Positions 573-15,986 of a stretch of 64,000 nucleotides of DNA are shown here, in pieces (the stretch's first letter is position 1; every line of letters begins with the position of its first letter). The stretch is from assembly GCF_964355755.1 (NCBI RefSeq), contig NC_092672.1:14938501-15002500 (forward strand), in the 5' to 3' direction. This DNA is from Antedon mediterranea (lineage: Eukaryota > Echinodermata > Crinoidea > Comatulida > Antedonidae). The position numbers were made by a program, and so were the translations under genes. The notes beneath the pieces were generated by a model, which worked only from the letters and a program-made list of their open reading frames with translations, did not search any database and was not told the DNA's origin.

Positions 573-583
573 TTTTGTATATA

Positions 584-680
584 TTAATCCAAAGGCAAAA
601 TACCGAAAAAATGACAATGCTGTGGGTATCAGTGGCTAGATCTCAATGGAGATACAAAAAAAGGCAAAATCAAAACGATA
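584..680 (-). repeat. Fragment of Penelope-like element terminus
   Basis: This matches the end sequence of the Penelope-like copies at 1184-1270 and 9790-9880: 'aatccaaaggcaaa', then 'gacaatgctgtgggtatc', then 'tctcaatggagatacaaaaaa'. It breaks off before the hammerhead-like core present in the other copies. The following 690-760 is repeated at 1065-1130 (words 'aaacatcacaggcaca' and 'accgcccggtgata'). The stretch therefore looks like two overlapping, truncated insertions or a local duplication. Confidence 0.6.
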
Positions 681-810
681 AAGGAAGGTTGTATGCGTAA
701 TATAAACATCACAGGCACAGAATAAATTAAACCGCCCGGTGATATACTGAAATTTAATTAATTAATTTGAAACGATAAAGTTAAGGAAATCTGTGAGAAT
801 GAGGACAATT

Positions 811-882: not shown

Positions 883-1298
883 TTTCATGTTATTGTTCAA
901 ACCTGATTGGATAGCGACTCTTTAACATTCTCGGCGTGGTACGGCGGAACAGCACTAGTCCCTCAATTGTACGCACGTGCACCAGAGATCAAATTGATAC
1001 GCCCTCATCTTTCAGTATTTTATTCACGAGGCAGGATCTCAGAAGACATACTTTTATATATACTGTATAAACATCACAGGCACAAAATAAATTCTAAACC
1101 GCCCGGTGATACACTGAAATTTGATTGAATAATTTATTTATTTATTTATTAATTTAATTAATATATATTATTATGTATATATAAATCCAAAGGCAAATTA
1201 CTGAAAAAAGGACAATGCTGTGGGTATCAGTGGCTGGATCTCAATATGAGATACAAAAAAAAGCTATATCAAAACGATAAAGTAAAACAGCCAGAAAA

Positions 1299-1352
1299 GT
1301 TAGCAGAGCTTTCGGGCAATATAACATTACTGTAGCCTTTCATCAGTGCAAG
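1299..1352 (-). ncRNA. Hammerhead-ribozyme-like core (Penelope terminus), degraded stem II
   Basis: On the minus strand the order is CTGATGA (1340-1346), a long variable hairpin region, GCCC, GAAA (about 1310-1313), then GCTCTGCTAAC. It is the same arrangement as the intact core at 12406-12443, but stem II is weakened (AGGC opposite GCCC) and its loop is enlarged. A stem I is not visible by eye, so activity is unproven. Confidence 0.5.
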
Positions 1353-1767
1353 TGAAGAAATTTTGATAAAGTAAAGTGCTGCATGGGTGGACAGGAATAA
1401 AAGAAATACAACCAAGGAGACAGGGTGGTGAATGGTGGATGGAGACTGAATAAGAGTAGAAAACAGAGAAGATAGCTACAATTGGTAGAGATATAAACAA
1501 TTTTGGAATGGAAATAAAAAAAGCTTAAATAGTGGTTAATATTGAAACTTAAATTTTGGTAGTAAATGGAATAATTTTACCTACAGTATCTGAGAGTATG
1601 TTCCTAATGTTAAGTCCAAAAGGTTTTGTTGTTTTAAGTTGTCAGTGGTTTTCTTTGTCTTTGCGAGTTTTGTTGCTCCATTTGACATCGTGGTCTATTG
1701 CAAAATAACTCTGAAATTTGCAATTGAGTGACCAGCTGAATTATGTTCGGCTACATGTTGACCAAGC

Positions 1768-7375: not shown

Positions 7376-7407
7376 CAACTCGTACGTACAATTTCGATAT
7401 CTCTTAA

Positions 7408-7584
7408 GCTTGGTTCCCACTAGAACGTAACGCAAGGACGTAAACGCAACGCAAGCGTTTCAACCAATGACAAGCGAAGTTATAGACAGTTAGCAATCAC
7501 AAGCGAATAAGCCATCGCTTGTGATTGGTCAATTCACTTGCGTTGCGTTACGTCCTTGTGTTGCGTCGCTAGTGGGAACCACGC
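7408..7584. mobile_element. 177-bp palindromic MITE, copy 1
   Basis: It has terminal inverted repeats GCTTGGTTCCCACTAG / CTAGTGGGAACCACGC and a near-palindromic interior rich in aacgcaaggacgt and the word caatcacaagcga. It is the inverted twin of the copy at 15656-15822; a third, diverged copy sits at 39868-40008. No target duplication is evident at this copy. Confidence 0.8.
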
Positions 7585-7589
7585 TGTAC

Positions 7590-7750
7590 TGTACGCGTTA
7601 TTATCACGTACGTACGACTTATTATCTCGTACGTACAACTTATTATCTCGTACGTACGTGTTATTTTCTCGTACGTACGTGTTTTTATCTCGTACGTACG
7701 AGATAATAACACGTACGTAACACGTACGGCACGTATAACACGTATCTTGT
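7590..7750. repeat. Palindromic CGTACGTAC minisatellite
   Basis: About six units of roughly 24 bp are built around CGTACGTAC, joined by 'acttattatct' or 'tgttatttt' spacers. Orientation flips within the array (tctcgtacgtacgagataa), so it can form cruciforms. The same units recur at 17105-17190. Open frames across it on both strands are artefacts of the repeat. Confidence 0.75.
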
Positions 7751-8457: not shown

Positions 8458-8829
8458 TAGACCGGCAGCCCAGAGACATTTGGTTAGATGAGCTAGGTAC
8501 CAATATCTGACTATTTGAGTGTGTTGGGGGTCACTTGAAGTGAATGAAAATGGGAGTCTGCCGGGTACCCCCTGCTGCGTCTAGACCGGGGGGACCCCGA
8601 AACGTGCTAAAAGATCGGCACAGGTTAGATGAGAGAGATACCACCTAATTTTACCACCATGGGATGCCCATTGGCATCCTTATAACAGTATCACAAACGA
8701 CAGACTTTTTCTCTGCTGCAAAAGGCCCGCCAGACCCCCCGAGGGAGGGCCTAAAATGGGGTTAGCATAGATGAGTGAGGTACCACTCAAAATCAATTCC
8801 AAACGATCAAGTTGTGTTCATACAATACT

Positions 8830-9420
8830 AAATGGATAACAACAGACTAATTGTCTGCTGCACCGCAAGTGCCAGACACCCTGAAGTTAGACTAGAGGCC
8901 CCCTTCCCCCAACTAACCCAGCTTAGATATTGTAGATACCACCAGCAACCAATGTTATATGATTTAGCACATTGTAAGCAATACCAAATGACCTATTACA
9001 GACTATCTGAACACTGCCCTGGCCCTGGCAGACCCCTCTAAAGTTAGACTAGAGACCCCTCTTTCCCCAACTAGCCCAGCTTAGATATTGTAGATACCAC
9101 CAGCAACCAATGTTATATGATTTAGCACATTGTAAGCAATCACCAAATGACCTATTACAAACTATCTGTACACTGCCTTGGCCCTGGCAGACCCCTCTAA
9201 AGTTCGACTAGAGACTCCATTCCCCCAACTGGCCTAGCTTAGATATTGTAGATACCACCAGCAACCAATGTTATAATTATGATTTAGCACATTGTAAGCA
9301 ATACCAAATGACCTATAACAGACTATCTGTACACTGCCTTGGCACTGGCAGACCCCTCTAAAGTTCCCCCATTTACCCCAAGTATATAGCCTACATGTAC
9401 CTTAGATATTGTAGATACCA
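8830..9420. repeat. About 158-bp tandem repeats in left arm
   Basis: Roughly 3.5 units contain 'cagcttagatattgtagataccaccagc', 'atgatttagcacattgtaagca' and 'gcagacccctctaaagtt'. The spacing between successive 'gactagag' words is 157-159 bp. The same array is present inverted in the right arm (13030-13600). Confidence 0.8.
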
Positions 9421-9920
9421 ATACATTTTAACTTTAATCGAACTAACACAAAACAATTGAAAATATATCACATCAATGACGATAAAATGACCATTACCAT
9501 TTTAAAGGGAAAAATAGTTTAAGAGTTTCACTTCAAACTTATATAAGCCAAATATAAACAAGTACGGATTCGAGTAAATTTAGCATTCCTGCTAGAATTG
9601 TGAGGATCTGGAATTCCTTGCCTTTGAATGTCAAAGATACATTCGTCTGTAACTCTTGCAACCTATTTTAAGAGAAAGCTTAGTAATCACCTTAATCAAA
9701 TTCAGGATTGTAGTAACTTCATCAAAAGTGATTTTATTATAGTTGGTAATTTTAAATGCTGTATATTATAATCTTAATCCTCTATATATATTTATATATA
9801 TAAATCCAAAGGCAAATAACTGAAAAAATGACAATGCTGTGGGTATCTGGCTGAATCTCAATGGAGATACAAAAAAAAAAGTGAAAAGCTAAATCAAAAG
9901 GATAAAGTAAAACAGCCAGA

Positions 9921-9966
9921 AACGTTAGCAGAGCTTTCGGGCAACACTAGCCCTTCATCATTGCAA
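9921..9966 (-). ncRNA. Hammerhead-like core at the Penelope 3' end (box 1 mutated)
   Basis: The minus strand reads ATGATGA (first C of CTGATGA lost), A, GGGC, loop TAGTGTT, GCCC, GAAA, GCTCTGCTAAC. Stem II is perfect. The altered first core base suggests this copy no longer cleaves. It lies downstream of the GIY-YIG-like region in the sense orientation. Confidence 0.6.
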
Positions 9967-10130
9967 GTGAAGGATAAGAGCTGGCAAGTGCTGCCTGGGT
10001 GGACAGGAATAAAAGAAATACAACAAACGAAGACAGGGTGGAGTCTGAAAAAGAGTAGAAAAAAAAGAAGGTAGCTTGGTAGAGATACAGTATAAACAAT
10101 TTTGGAATGAAACTAAACAAGGCCAACAGC

Positions 10131-10212
10131 CATAAGTCGCGTGCTAAAACGCATAGAGATACCGGACCGACCGACAGACCGACCGACATAGTGAACTATA
10201 GAGTCGCGCCAG
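10131..10212 (+). repeat. Dispersed CCGACCGAC / 'tagtgaactatagagtcgcg' repeat
   Basis: The sequence 'agtcgcgtgc ... gaccgaccgacatagtgaac tatagagtcgcg' is shared with 34907-34970. Short (CCGA)n runs and the flanking agtcgcg words mark a small dispersed family. It has no coding potential. Confidence 0.6.
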
Positions 10213-12400
10213 GAAAGGATAGGTACTAAAAATAACTATCTAAGTGGAAGCTGTTTTAAGGACGTACTTAACATAGATAAAGCTTTAGAATAAAACTAAA
10301 AACAGCTTAAATGGTGGTTAATATTAAAACTTAAATTTTGGTAGACAATGGAATAATTTTACCAACCTGGGAGTATGTTTCTAATGTTAAGTACAAAAGG
10401 TTTTGTGGTTTTAAGTTGTAATTCCCAGTGGTTTTCCTTGTCTTTGCGAGTTTTGTCGCTCCATTTGACACATGGAATATTGCAATAACTCTGAAATTTG
10501 TTATCGAGTGACCAGCTGAATTAAAATGTTCGGCTACAGGTTGAACAAGCTTTAATGTGTTGATAGCTGATCTGTATTGTGTCATTCTCATACGGAGAGT
10601 GTTTTTTTGTTTCTCCGACGTACTGTTTGCCACAAATATTACAGTATATGAGATAAATGACGTTTTTGGTTAGACAATTAATTGATTGTCTTATCCGAAA
10701 AATGCGGCCAGTTTAGTTACTCTTAAATTTTTCAGTAAAATCAACCAATGAACAAGTTTTGCAAGATTTGCCGCAAAGGTGACTGCCCAAATTTTGACTG
10801 TCATCATGAGAGTTAATTTCACTCTTACATTTGGATCTGACTAATATATCACGAATGTTGGGAGGTCTACGAAATGCAATAATGGGTGGTTCCGGAAAAA
10901 CAGTCCTGAGACGTTCTGTGGACTGTAGAATGGGCATATGTTTCTCAATAAATTAATAGCCCCGTAATGGAGGCAACCTAGGGTGATAGGTTTGTAATTT
11001 CTATTCCGGAGATGTCCGGTTAGTTCTTCGGTACGATTCTGAAAATCTAAATCTGAAGAACAGATACGTCTGATAGGTAATGCTTTACTGTTCGGTATGT
11101 TTTTAGTACAGTGTTGGGGATGACAACTGCTAAGGAGCAGGTACATATTTTTATCAGTGGGTTTACGGAATAAGTCAGTTTTTGAGAGTACCATTTTCTA
11201 TGGTCACTATAGTGTCCACAAAATCAACGTAACTAGTGGATTTGGTAACTGTAAATCTTAGGATCGATGGAGTGTTTTTTTTTACCATCACAGAAACAGA
11301 TTTTGCCACCTTATCCGCAATTTCCGGGGTGGGTTCCGTTGTGAGTTTACGATATATAATGAAGCTGTCTTAAGGATTCCTCTTAATAAAATTTGATGTC
11401 CATAGCAACAGTGGCAGAACCTTTATCAGCGGGTTTAATGATGATATCATTACTCTGACGCAATTTGGCAATGGCCTGCCTCTCTTGTTTTGAGATTGTC
11501 ACGTTTATCTGGACTCGGGACGTAGTTTTGTACATCCTCCTCAATAGCCTGGATAAATGTTTCTAAAGCTGGACAACGAATTTTAGGTGGATTCTAGGAA
11601 CTTTTTGGTTTAAATTTGTTAACGTTGCCTTCGTTTTGCGTGGTGCTGCTGTCTGAATCAGCAAAATATTCATGTAATCGTAATCTTCTAGAAAAAGACT
11701 CTATATCCAAAGATAGTTGTTGTGCGCCGACCTGCCTTGGTTTTGGGCAGAATTTAAGTCCTCGGGAAAGAAGTTTTTTCTCTCCTTCGGAAAGTCGACA
11801 ATTAATTTCAACAACTGAATCAGAGGTGTTGCTCTGATTCTTGTTATATGTCCCAACGAACCTTCTGCAGGGTTTCCTAAAAGCCCTGAAGTCATCCGAA
11901 GGTAGAGTCATTTGTGTTGAAATGACCAAGTCTGCAGGTAGACCAAATTTGTGATGTTCCCTTCGGGCCATTACCGTTGATTGTTTACGGCAGTCATTGG
12001 CGATAATCCTGAGTTTGTTTTGAAACTAGGATGCAGGAAGTTCTCTTTTCAACTTCTTAGTTCTAGAGTGAATTTCAACGTCAAACTCAGTGAGGATTTT
12101 GCGGCAATTGTCAATTTGGATCTCATTGAGATCTCTAATTTTGTTCAAATACCTTTTTTAATAGATACAGTACTACATATCTACATAAATAAAGTACATA
12201 AAAAAAAATTATATATATTTATAATTTTTTTTTTAAATATTTTTTTCGATCGAGATACGGTATTGTTCAGTCTATCTGAAGATCGTTTAACGTGAAACAC
12301 CGTGTAATAGACGTCCGTGTTCCATCTACTTTATAAAAATATATATTCGCTCTTGATTCCAATTGAGCACGTTTGCAGCCTCAACGCATCTATATAAGAC

Positions 12401-12446
12401 TTGCACTGATGAAGGGCTAGTGTTGCCCGAAAGCTCTGCTAACTTT
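12401..12446 (+). ncRNA. Hammerhead ribozyme core at Penelope terminus
   Basis: CTGATGA (12406-12412) is followed by A, then stem II GGGC/GCCC with loop TAGTGTT, then GAAA (12429-12432). A minimal stem III follows (A-G-C / G-C-T around TCT) with CTA as the candidate cleavage triplet (12439-12441) and then ACTTTTCTGG. All three core boxes and stems II and III fit the type I hammerhead layout known from Penelope-like elements. A matching stem I between the 5' flank (GACTTGCA) and 3' flank is not evident by eye, so activity may need a dimer, or may be lost. Confidence 0.7.
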
Positions 12447-12566
12447 TCTGGCTGTTTACTTTATCGTTTTGATTTAGCTTTTCGCTTTTTTTTTTTGTAT
12501 CTCCATTGAGATCCAGCCACTGATACCCACAGCATTGTCATTTTTTCAGTAATTTGCCTTTGGATT

Positions 12567-12602
<36 letters not shown>

Positions 12603-13029
12603 TACAGGATTAAGATTATAATATACAGCATTTAAAATTACCCACTATTAATTAATCAAATCACTTTAGATTAAGTTACTACAATCCTGAATTTGATTAG
12701 GGTGATTACTAAGCTATGTCCAAAAGTTACAGACGGATGTATCTTTTTTTTTTTCTCTTTTGTGGCGTTAACCACTGTATCTTTGACATCCAAAGGCAAG
12801 GAATGCTAAATTTACCCGAATCCATACTTGTTATATATATTTGGCTTATAATATATAAGTTTTAATTGAAACTCTTAAACTATTTTTCCCTTTAGAATGG
12901 TAATGGTCATTTTATCGTCATTGATGTGATATATTTTCAATTGTTTTGTGTTAGTTCGATTAAAGTTAAACTTTATTCAATTAAACATGTTGTTTTGGGT
13001 GTTTTTTTTTGCTGCTGGTGGTATCTACA

Positions 13030-13600
13030 ATATCTAAGGTAGGCTATATACTTGGGGTAAATGGGGGAACTTTAGAGGGGTCTGCCAGTGCCAAGGCAGT
13101 GTACAGATAGTCTGTTATAGGTCATTTGGTATTGCTTACAAATGTGCTAAATCATAATTATAACATTGGTTGCTGGTGGTATCTACAATATCTAAGCTAG
13201 GCCAGTTGGGGGAATGGAGTCTCTAGTCGAACTTTAGAGGGGTCTGCCAGGGCCAAGGCAGTGTACAGATAGTTTGTAATAGGTCATTTGGTGATTGCTT
13301 ACAATGTGCTAAATCATATAACATTGGTTGCTGGTGGTATCTACAATATCTAAGCTGGGCTAGTTGGGGAAATAGGGGTCTCTAGTCTAACTTTAGAGGG
13401 GTCTGCCAGGGCCAGGGCAGTGTTCAGATAGTCTGTAATAGGTCATTTGGTATTGCTTACAATGTGCTAAATCATATAACATTGGTTGCTGGTGGTATCT
13501 ACAATATCTAAGCTGGGTTAGTTGGGGGAAGGGGGGCCTCTAGTCTAACTTTAGGGTGTCTGGCACTGGCGGTGCAGCAGACAATTAGTCTGTTGTTATC
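13030..13600. repeat. About 158-bp tandem repeats in right arm (inverted)
   Basis: Inverted counterpart of 8830-9420, with the same unit words ('gctggtggtatctacaatatctaagct', 'gaggggtctgccag') and unit length. Unit-by-unit similarity to the other arm is high. Confidence 0.8.
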
Positions 13601-13756
13601 CATTTTGTATTGTATGAACACAACTTGTTCGTTTGGAATTGATTTTGAGTGGTACCTCACTCATCTATGCTAACCCCATTTTAGGCCCTCCCTCGGGGGG
13701 TCTGGCGGGCCTTTTGCAGCAGAGAAAAAGTCTGTCGTTTGTGATACTGTTATAAG

Positions 13757-14061
13757 GAGTGGAGCTGTGGCTTGGTGGTTATGATGCTTGGCTACCAATC
13801 TAAGGGTCCTGGGTTCAAGTCCTGTCATATGTCAGGGTTTTTTTCTCATGACAATTTACAACTCCACTCCCAAAGACTTAATAATAAGTCTTTGTCTATG
13901 TAGAGCATCTTGTGTATATGTTTGTCTTATATGTTCTAGTGCAGTATATGGAGAGCCATCTCGATAGTGCTTTGCACTCATGGCAATCCTCAGGGTGCTG
14001 CACCGCTGTGTTGTCATGTATGTTTGCCTGAAAATTAAATAAAATAAAAAATAAAATAAAT
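13757..14061 (+). mobile_element. tRNA-derived SINE inserted in the right arm
   Basis: The head resembles a tRNA: GGAGTGGAGCTGTGGCTTGG (A-box region) and GGTTCAAGTCC (B box, about 13812-13822). A body follows with a CTCCACTCC complement to the head (13861-13870), and an A-rich tail (aaataaaataaaaaataaaataaa) ends at 14061. The left arm at 8680 lacks this block and reads from 'cccattgg' straight into 'catccttataac', so the insertion is younger than the arms. Confidence 0.75.
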
Positions 14062-14273
14062 GGGCATCCCATGGTGGTAAAATTAGGTGGTATCTCTCTC
14101 ATCTAACCTGTGCCGATTTTTTAGCACGTTTCGGGGTCCCCCCGGTCTAGACGCAGCAGGGGGTACCCGGCAGACTTCCATTTTCATTCACTTCAAGTGA
14201 CCCCCAACACACTCAAATAGTCAGATGTTGGTACCTAGCTCATCTAACCAAATGTCTCTGGGCTGCCGGTCTA

Positions 14274-15477: not shown

Positions 15478-15986
15478 GAGATGGCGGCTATTCGGACACA
15501 TCATCAGATTGCAAAAGAAAGTCCCAGCCAATAAAGCAATAAGCTATAATTAGGCTAAGTATTATTTTGAAAACTGTAAGCAACAAAAGTATAGAGGACG
15601 ACCACGATCCACACTACCGGTTACTCTATCGAACGACGTGATCACCCTTCATAAAGCGTGGTTCCCACTAGCGACGCAACGCAAGGACGCAAGTGAATTG
15701 ACCAATCACAAGCGATGGCTTATTCGCTTGTGATTGCTAACTGTCTATAACTTCGCTTGTCATTGGTTAAAACGCTTGCGTTGCGTTTACGTCCTTGCGT
15801 TACGTTCTAGTGGGAACCAAGCATAAACAATCATCAACTGCACTAGGGCCCCCTCCTACAAAAGCATTAAAGATATAGAAACGATTCGGAGAAAAAAACA
15901 GACAGGACTGGAGGAAAGCAATCCGAGATAAAAGCAAAGTAGCCGAGGCGCGAAAGTCATCAGACTATCTGGTGGACCGGCTATAA
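15478..15986 (+). mobile_element. LINE C-terminal remnant split by a MITE
   Basis: Plus-strand frames read RLFGHIIRLQKKVPANKAI, YYFENCKQQKYRGRPRSTLP and, beyond the MITE, SDYLVDRL. This pattern (W/R-x-FGH...RGRPR-x-LP) is usual near the C terminus of LINE ORF2 proteins. Stops interrupt it and the upstream RT is absent. Confidence 0.6.
15656..15822. mobile_element. 167-bp palindromic MITE, copy 2
   Basis: TIRs are GCGTGGTTCCCACTAG / CTAGTGGGAACCAAGC. It is flanked by ATAAA at 15651-15655 and 15823-15827, a likely 5-bp target duplication, and sits inside the LINE remnant. It is the reverse complement of copy 1 (7408-7584) with very few differences. Confidence 0.85.

Follow-up and report, generated by a model that had tools for sequence, protein, structure and literature searches.

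Minimal type I hammerhead ribozymes have reportedly been described in Penelope-like elements (PLEs) by Cervera and De la Pena in 2014 and by Lunse et al. in 2017, and this published minimal PLE hammerhead is said to cleave as a dimer. In the case of the PAc hammerhead (Poseidon, Anolis carolinensis), excerpts of one report state that cleavage takes place only with the PLE protein added, that hammerhead mutants leave insertion in vitro unaffected, and that self-cleavage of a PLE hammerhead had been observed earlier at 3–25 mM Mg2+ (PMC11167929). According to an excerpt of a second report, for dimers the stem III loop must be palindromic and the motifs arranged in tandem (PMC6466107). Inverted 5' pLTRs and 5' truncation of PLEs are described in part of a third (PMC3846280), and the cited portion of a fourth describes the role of PLE hammerheads as unknown (PMC7761336).

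The motif described here starts at position 12401 of the window, by which we mean the whole 64,000-nucleotide stretch of Antedon mediterranea DNA that was analysed; it belongs to this known kind, and its locus is an ordinary one. We give a probability of about 0.82 to the reading that it is a copy of the published minimal PLE type I hammerhead, cut after 12436 and of the dimer type, which is carried as a passenger and is most probably inactive. The original prediction started from CTGATGA, a 4-bp stem II and GAAA, all of which were confirmed in the window letters (Table 1), where the CTA triplet is also present (12439-12441). The motif combines core boxes of the form CUGANGA and GAAA with a stem II and a palindromic stem III, and has an extra A at 12413 that is absent from the canonical hammerhead core. 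It lies in a repeat, referred to below as family 1, of which three copies had been proposed (1299, 9921 and 12401); these exist, together with a fourth, partial one. Their arrangement had to be revised: 12401 and 9921 lie in opposite orientations and occupy the inner ends of a long element with inverted repeats, and the 9921 and 1299 copies are both on the minus strand. No second family-1 copy was found on the plus strand within the 64-kb window. The statement that no copy but 12401 has the two core boxes together with a perfect stem II was right as a conjunction: the 1299 copy keeps both boxes with an imperfect stem II, and the 9921 copy has lost C3, replaced by A at 9961 (ATGATGA), as is likewise found in four other loci of the genome (L142, L144, L145 and L146).

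Table 1. Features of the 12401 motif and of its surroundings in the window
Feature	Position	Strand	Remarks
Partial family-1 copy without hammerhead part	578..686	-	
Further family-1 copy	1161..1353	-	Both core boxes kept; stem II imperfect, loop enlarged
Long-TIR element, ends TAGACCGGCAGCC	8458..14273	.	158-nt tandem repeats in arms, PLE at centre, ACA flanks on both sides
Family-1 terminal repeat, downstream of PLE ORF, sense	9783..9968	-	93.7% identity to 12399 copy
Decayed PLE ORF remnant (RT + GIY-YIG region)	10370..11990	-	Stops and frame breaks; DNA homologous to L143
Family-1 PLE terminal repeat (pLTR end) with hammerhead motif	12399..12590	+	Antisense to PLE ORF at the locus
Stem I 5' strand UUGCA	12401..12405	+	Partner strand 12437-12439 and 12441-12442 (3 contiguous bp; 5 if a 1-nt bulge is allowed)
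Core box CUGAUGA (C3-A9)	12406..12412	+	Direct reading
Additional A, unpaired, after A9 and before stem II	12413	+	Usually U in the genome's second motif family
Stem II GGGC/GCCC, 7-nt loop UAGUGUU	12414..12428	+	Direct reading; GGGC 12414-12417, GCCC 12425-12428; 4 G-C pairs
Core box GAA + A15.1	12429..12432	+	Direct reading
Palindromic AGCU, putative stem III between two copies	12432..12435	+	AGCT in 63/70 distinct copies, mostly found via the motif and hence a biased set
H17 = C12436, proposed cut between 12436 and 12437, stem I 3' strand UGC(U)AA	12436..12442	+	

Family 1 is the terminal repeat of an endonuclease-type PLE (RT + GIY-YIG). The ORF fragments of the window alone reach a GIY-YIG score of 13.6, below the Pfam cut-off, and as they are too weak to name the element, the name was taken from a homologous locus (L143), in which two open frames (one of 681 residues, the other of 196) exceed the Pfam cut-offs for both RVT_1 (37.3 bits, cut-off 29.6) and GIY-YIG (23.1 bits, cut-off 22.6). 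A phmmer comparison of the L143 frame with solved structures found nothing. Among the five ORF loci (L139-L143, stretches of 5-6 kb), one has the pLTR flanking the ORF on both sides and on the same strand: in L139 one repeat precedes the ORF (1724) and another, oriented alike, follows it (5194), giving a pLTR-ORF-pLTR arrangement with motifs at 1731+ and 5201+, the downstream one having one stem II mismatch. L143 has a full sense motif downstream of the ORF and an upstream repeat without the motif, L140 is an inverted head-to-head copy, and L141 and L142 have long inverted arms. The pLTR-ORF-pLTR layout of L139, together with AT-rich insertion and variable 5' truncation, is that of a PLE; with this layout and the L143 domains over their cut-offs, the proposal of a hammerhead-type core in a PLE terminal repeat is borne out. 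As L139 and L143 show, the motif can lie in the pLTR on the ORF strand. In a tandem pLTR-ORF-pLTR transcript, the two motifs would then have to pair through AGCU, and each core would cut after C17, that is, between 12436 and 12437 in the window copy, with UUGCA/UGC(U)AA as stem I.

At the present locus, the 12401 copy is found inside a 5.8-kb inverted-repeat element, antisense to the decayed PLE ORF. The PLE is placed at the AT-rich centre of this long-TIR element, in the window (8458-14273) as in L141, L142, L144, L145 and L146, and the arms occur at 20 distinct places among the loci examined (refetched places counted once). The 3-bp flanks match in three of the four copies with both ends (ACA in the window, TAA in L141, ATT in L144), L145 being ambiguous. 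These 20 composites are a selected, non-random set, retrieved through their likeness to the window copy or to its ORF. The antisense motif is broken or missing in 18 of them: stem II is broken (GCGC) in 15, the motif is absent from 3 (L146, L141 and L142), and the remaining 2, the window and L029, have it unbroken. In the sense motif, C3 is replaced by A in each of the five composites in which that motif is legible (window, L142, L144, L145 and L146). Two further loci, both of which have GCCC and share the 5' flank, were left out of the composites, L035 having no arms in the examined stretch and L043 being too short to show whether it has them. The inverted placement, the single plus-strand copy and the sense copy devoid of C3 lead us to regard the 12401 copy as a passenger with no nearby partner for a cis-dimer; cleavage of a cis-dimer at the locus, which the original prediction had left as an option, is therefore unsupported. 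The motif has most likely multiplied as such a passenger and would have been amplified along with the long-TIR element holding the dead PLE, as the shared arms, flanks and 3-bp duplications suggest; its anatomy indicates that it is most probably inactive here.

Further repeats surround the composite. A second, outer pair of inverted repeats (7404-7543 and 15687-15826, 99% over 140 nt) flanks it, and repeats spaced 21 nt occupy 7570-7737. A tRNA-Asp-like gene is found at 810-882 on the minus strand of the window (Rfam 58.9 bits, ARAGORN anticodon atc), and tRNA-like letters resembling it flank family-1 copies in L007 and L024; the tRNA-like sequences by family-1 copies are perhaps a tRNA-derived SINE.

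Family 1 is abundant in the genome. The motif pattern CTGATGANGGN{5,25}CCNGAAANNTCTGC has 966 matches in the 354-Mb source genome and 0 when read backwards; dropping the 3' part gives a looser pattern with 1308, of which 189 continue GAAAC, and most of the 100 listed among these 189 belong to the second motif family. An internal anchor of the terminal repeat, TTTTCTGGCTGTTTN{0,1}ACTTTATCG, which lies downstream of the motif, has 1002 matches (reversed control 0), and the sample analysed below consists of 60 of these 1002 copies (the first 60 of the 100 matches listed), all on contig C1. Core, stem II and GCA/TGC are all kept in 27 of the 60. Once the 15 anchor copies that could not be aligned had been dropped from the stem II tally, GGGC/GCCC was found to be kept in 24 of 31 distinct alignable copies, with one further compensatory case, the GGAC/GTCC of L091, L112 and L129, which is one haplotype with shared flanks. 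Complete copies, defined as those with at least 4 of the 5 letters of TTGCA, number 35 of the 60 (23 distinct), and they replace an earlier core tally (14/341) that had counted 5'-truncated copies as core mismatches. In the 23 distinct complete copies, changes affect 1 of 253 core sites, as against 19 of the 713 other sites of the motif (P 0.036). It is stem II that produces this contrast (9/184, P 0.002), with CpG decay there as a likely cause, and core and loop II alone show no difference (P 0.56); core conservation is thus marginal. Most family-1 copies examined are dispersed. In 13 of 30 aligned loci, copies with unrelated flanks end in TTTGGATTTATA, followed by AT-rich sequence, and the insertions show TA-rich junctions with scattered 5' starts. 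Two of the 60 anchor copies (L131 and L082) stand head to tail behind the 3' end of another copy; this arrangement, seen in L130-L131 (C1:13719632 and 13719814) and L082, is the one that a dimeric hammerhead would need in a short transcript.

The starts of the insertions bear on the use of the cut. The pLTR start is reached by 27 of the 60 anchor copies, and the proposed cut shows no accumulation of 5' ends, 1 of the 60 copies starting there (L092). As for the other starts near the cut, those of L124, L080 and L134 are internal deletions as seen by an ungapped measure, that of L138 is a truncation within TAAC, and AGCTC, five letters before the cut, is the start of L126, L088 and L115, the last two of which share flanks. 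That the insertions carry no footprint of a cleaved RNA speaks for the reading that the motif is kept for some reason other than cleavage, for example as an RNA element that binds the PLE protein or as part of a pLTR promoter, the hammerhead likeness being ancestral. The excerpts on PAc, whose mutants leave insertion in vitro unaffected and whose cleavage needs the PLE protein (PMC11167929), point the same way. We nevertheless hold such a role to be unlikely, in view of the few core changes in complete copies (1/253, a marginal result), the one compensatory stem II haplotype, and the earlier self-cleavage of a PLE hammerhead at 3–25 mM Mg2+ mentioned in the same excerpts (PMC11167929). In the family, the preserved core, the single start in 60 at the cut and the spread of a composite with a broken motif suggest that the job of the ribozyme may not be the trimming of a template for reverse transcription. 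We advance this only tentatively, as a rather unlikely possibility; the job might then be, for instance, the release of the ORF mRNA from tandem transcripts, or that of a protein-assisted RNA switch. Since one genome contains canonical hammerheads and two other motif families, one of them a PLE family of about a thousand copies, sequence alone makes it possible to ask whether the cleaved RNA is the insertion template; in the present small sample there is no sign that it is.

The position of the cut was approached by comparing stem I pairing at the nine UH sites that lie no more than 25 nt from GAAA. Best of the nine is the CTC that ends at 12436, with 3 contiguous stem I pairs, or 5 with a bulged U; the site at 12446 follows (1 contiguous pair, 4 with a bulge or mismatch), and for the CTA that ends at 12441 stem I has no base pair at all. 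With the CTC cut, the spacer from GAAA to the cut is GCUC alone, so that stem III would be the palindrome AGCU, unable to close in a monomer. Taken alone, the family-1 stem I is weak evidence for the register: its score against shuffled flanks has a P of 0.13, and the fraction of trials in which shuffled flanks attain it ranges, with the criterion used, from 0.11 to 0.53. The corresponding P is 0.07 to 0.26 in the second motif family, and the two canonical hammerheads of the genome (family 3 and L031) have values of 0.005 and 0.004. Given these values, we derive the register from the comparison of sites and from the published PLE motif, and not from the family-1 stem I by itself; a cut after 12436 probably fits better than one after 12441.

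The unconstrained MFE of the 12401 motif contains stem II and the GCA/UGC of the CTC register, that is, the three inner pairs of stem I, and also one pair within the core; the centroid is unpaired, the stability of the fold shows no excess over shuffles (z 0.52), and when two copies were cofolded, the minimum was not the double hammerhead. The original prediction had instead placed the cut after CTA (12441), in a type I hammerhead with a 3-bp stem III (AGC/GCU, loop UCU) and a stem I supplied perhaps by a tandem dimer. AGC can indeed pair with GCU, and CTA qualifies as an NUH triplet, but the 0-bp stem I means that this cut and its 3-bp stem III were not confirmed, and a tandem dimer of the same repeat adds no different stem I strand. 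In addition, the AGC/GCU stem is absent from the MFE and none of the 60 anchor copies starts at the cut after 12441. This register was rejected, and we regard it as very improbable.

Covariance searches, which had been suggested as a check, gave no hammerhead match at the locus, either at the Rfam gathering threshold or at E up to 10. Across the genome, RF00163 found nothing over the cut-off among the 73 of 33128 candidates scored, and two weak matches, L031 (a canonical hammerhead in tandem) and L032 (21.9 bits). The test is a weak one for PLE-type motifs. In a control, canonical hammerheads of the same genome reached E 2e-5 with RF02275 (L072) and E 2e-4 with RF00163 (L031), both below gathering, and L061 (of the second family) and L083 (family 1) had no Rfam hammerhead match; the lack of a match in Rfam is therefore compatible with a PLE-type motif. 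A mere chance likeness of the repeat to a hammerhead, in keeping with the missing Rfam match and a stem I that alone is within chance, was rejected and is the least probable reading of all, since core and perfect 4-bp stem II together match once in the 64-kb window vs 0 of 60 Markov-1 random 64-kb sequences, the repeat is part of a PLE, a group known for such motifs, and a second motif family of the genome has the same layout.

This layout (GAAA, palindrome, UH, cut, stem I) also fits three other hammerhead types of the genome. The second dispersed family, CTGATGATGGGCTATGCCCGAAACATGTC, occurs in L021, L059-L064 and L066-L071, with an ATG overlapping the core and the palindrome ACAUGU in 11 of 13 loci (L021 and L063 differ). 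Family 3 (L072-L077, L025 and L055) is canonical type I, with CTGACGA, a strong stem I and a 10-nt palindromic stem III, ACAGUACUGU, and is perhaps retrozyme-like; such a canonical hammerhead stands near a family-1 copy in L025, L055 and L075. In L031 (1501-1663), two canonical hammerheads, whose palindrome is ACGGUACCGU, follow each other in tandem, 117 bp apart, with 29.4 and 27.5 bits, below the Rfam cut-off. Family 3 and L031 together account for 101 genome pattern matches, two of them in L031. These canonical hammerheads resemble family 1 in the core, the UH, the UGCA round the base of stem I and the palindromic stem III, and differ from it in having 5-6 contiguous stem I pairs and no extra nucleotide.

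All in all, family 1 comes closest to the minimal type I hammerheads of PLEs. It is like them in its pLTR location, its same-strand copies round the ORF (L139), its core boxes and stem II, the lack of a monomer stem III and the palindrome at stem III; its particulars are the palindrome AGCU and the unpaired A after A9, the published kind having been compared by description. Non-LTR animal retrozymes are short tandem repeats with canonical type I hammerheads; the family-1 motif is non-canonical, with no monomer stem III, and its copies are mostly dispersed, two of the 60 anchor copies being head to tail with another copy. The newt and axolotl type I hammerheads, as presented in an excerpt of PMC7229834, share with it a very short stem III, a palindromic loop and better activity as dimers, and differ in their 330-350-bp tandem retrozyme repeats and in keeping the contacts between loops 1 and 2. 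PAc, in the excerpts of PMC11167929, is likewise part of an RT + GIY-YIG PLE, with a pLTR hammerhead that has stems I and II and with AT-rich insertion sites; there stem II is where the ORF begins, and cleavage falls 26 bp within the ORF. Unlike in PAc, the ATG within CTGATGA of the window meets a stop after three codons (ATG AAG GGC TAG), and it is the second motif family, with its ATG overlapping the core, that resembles PAc in this respect.
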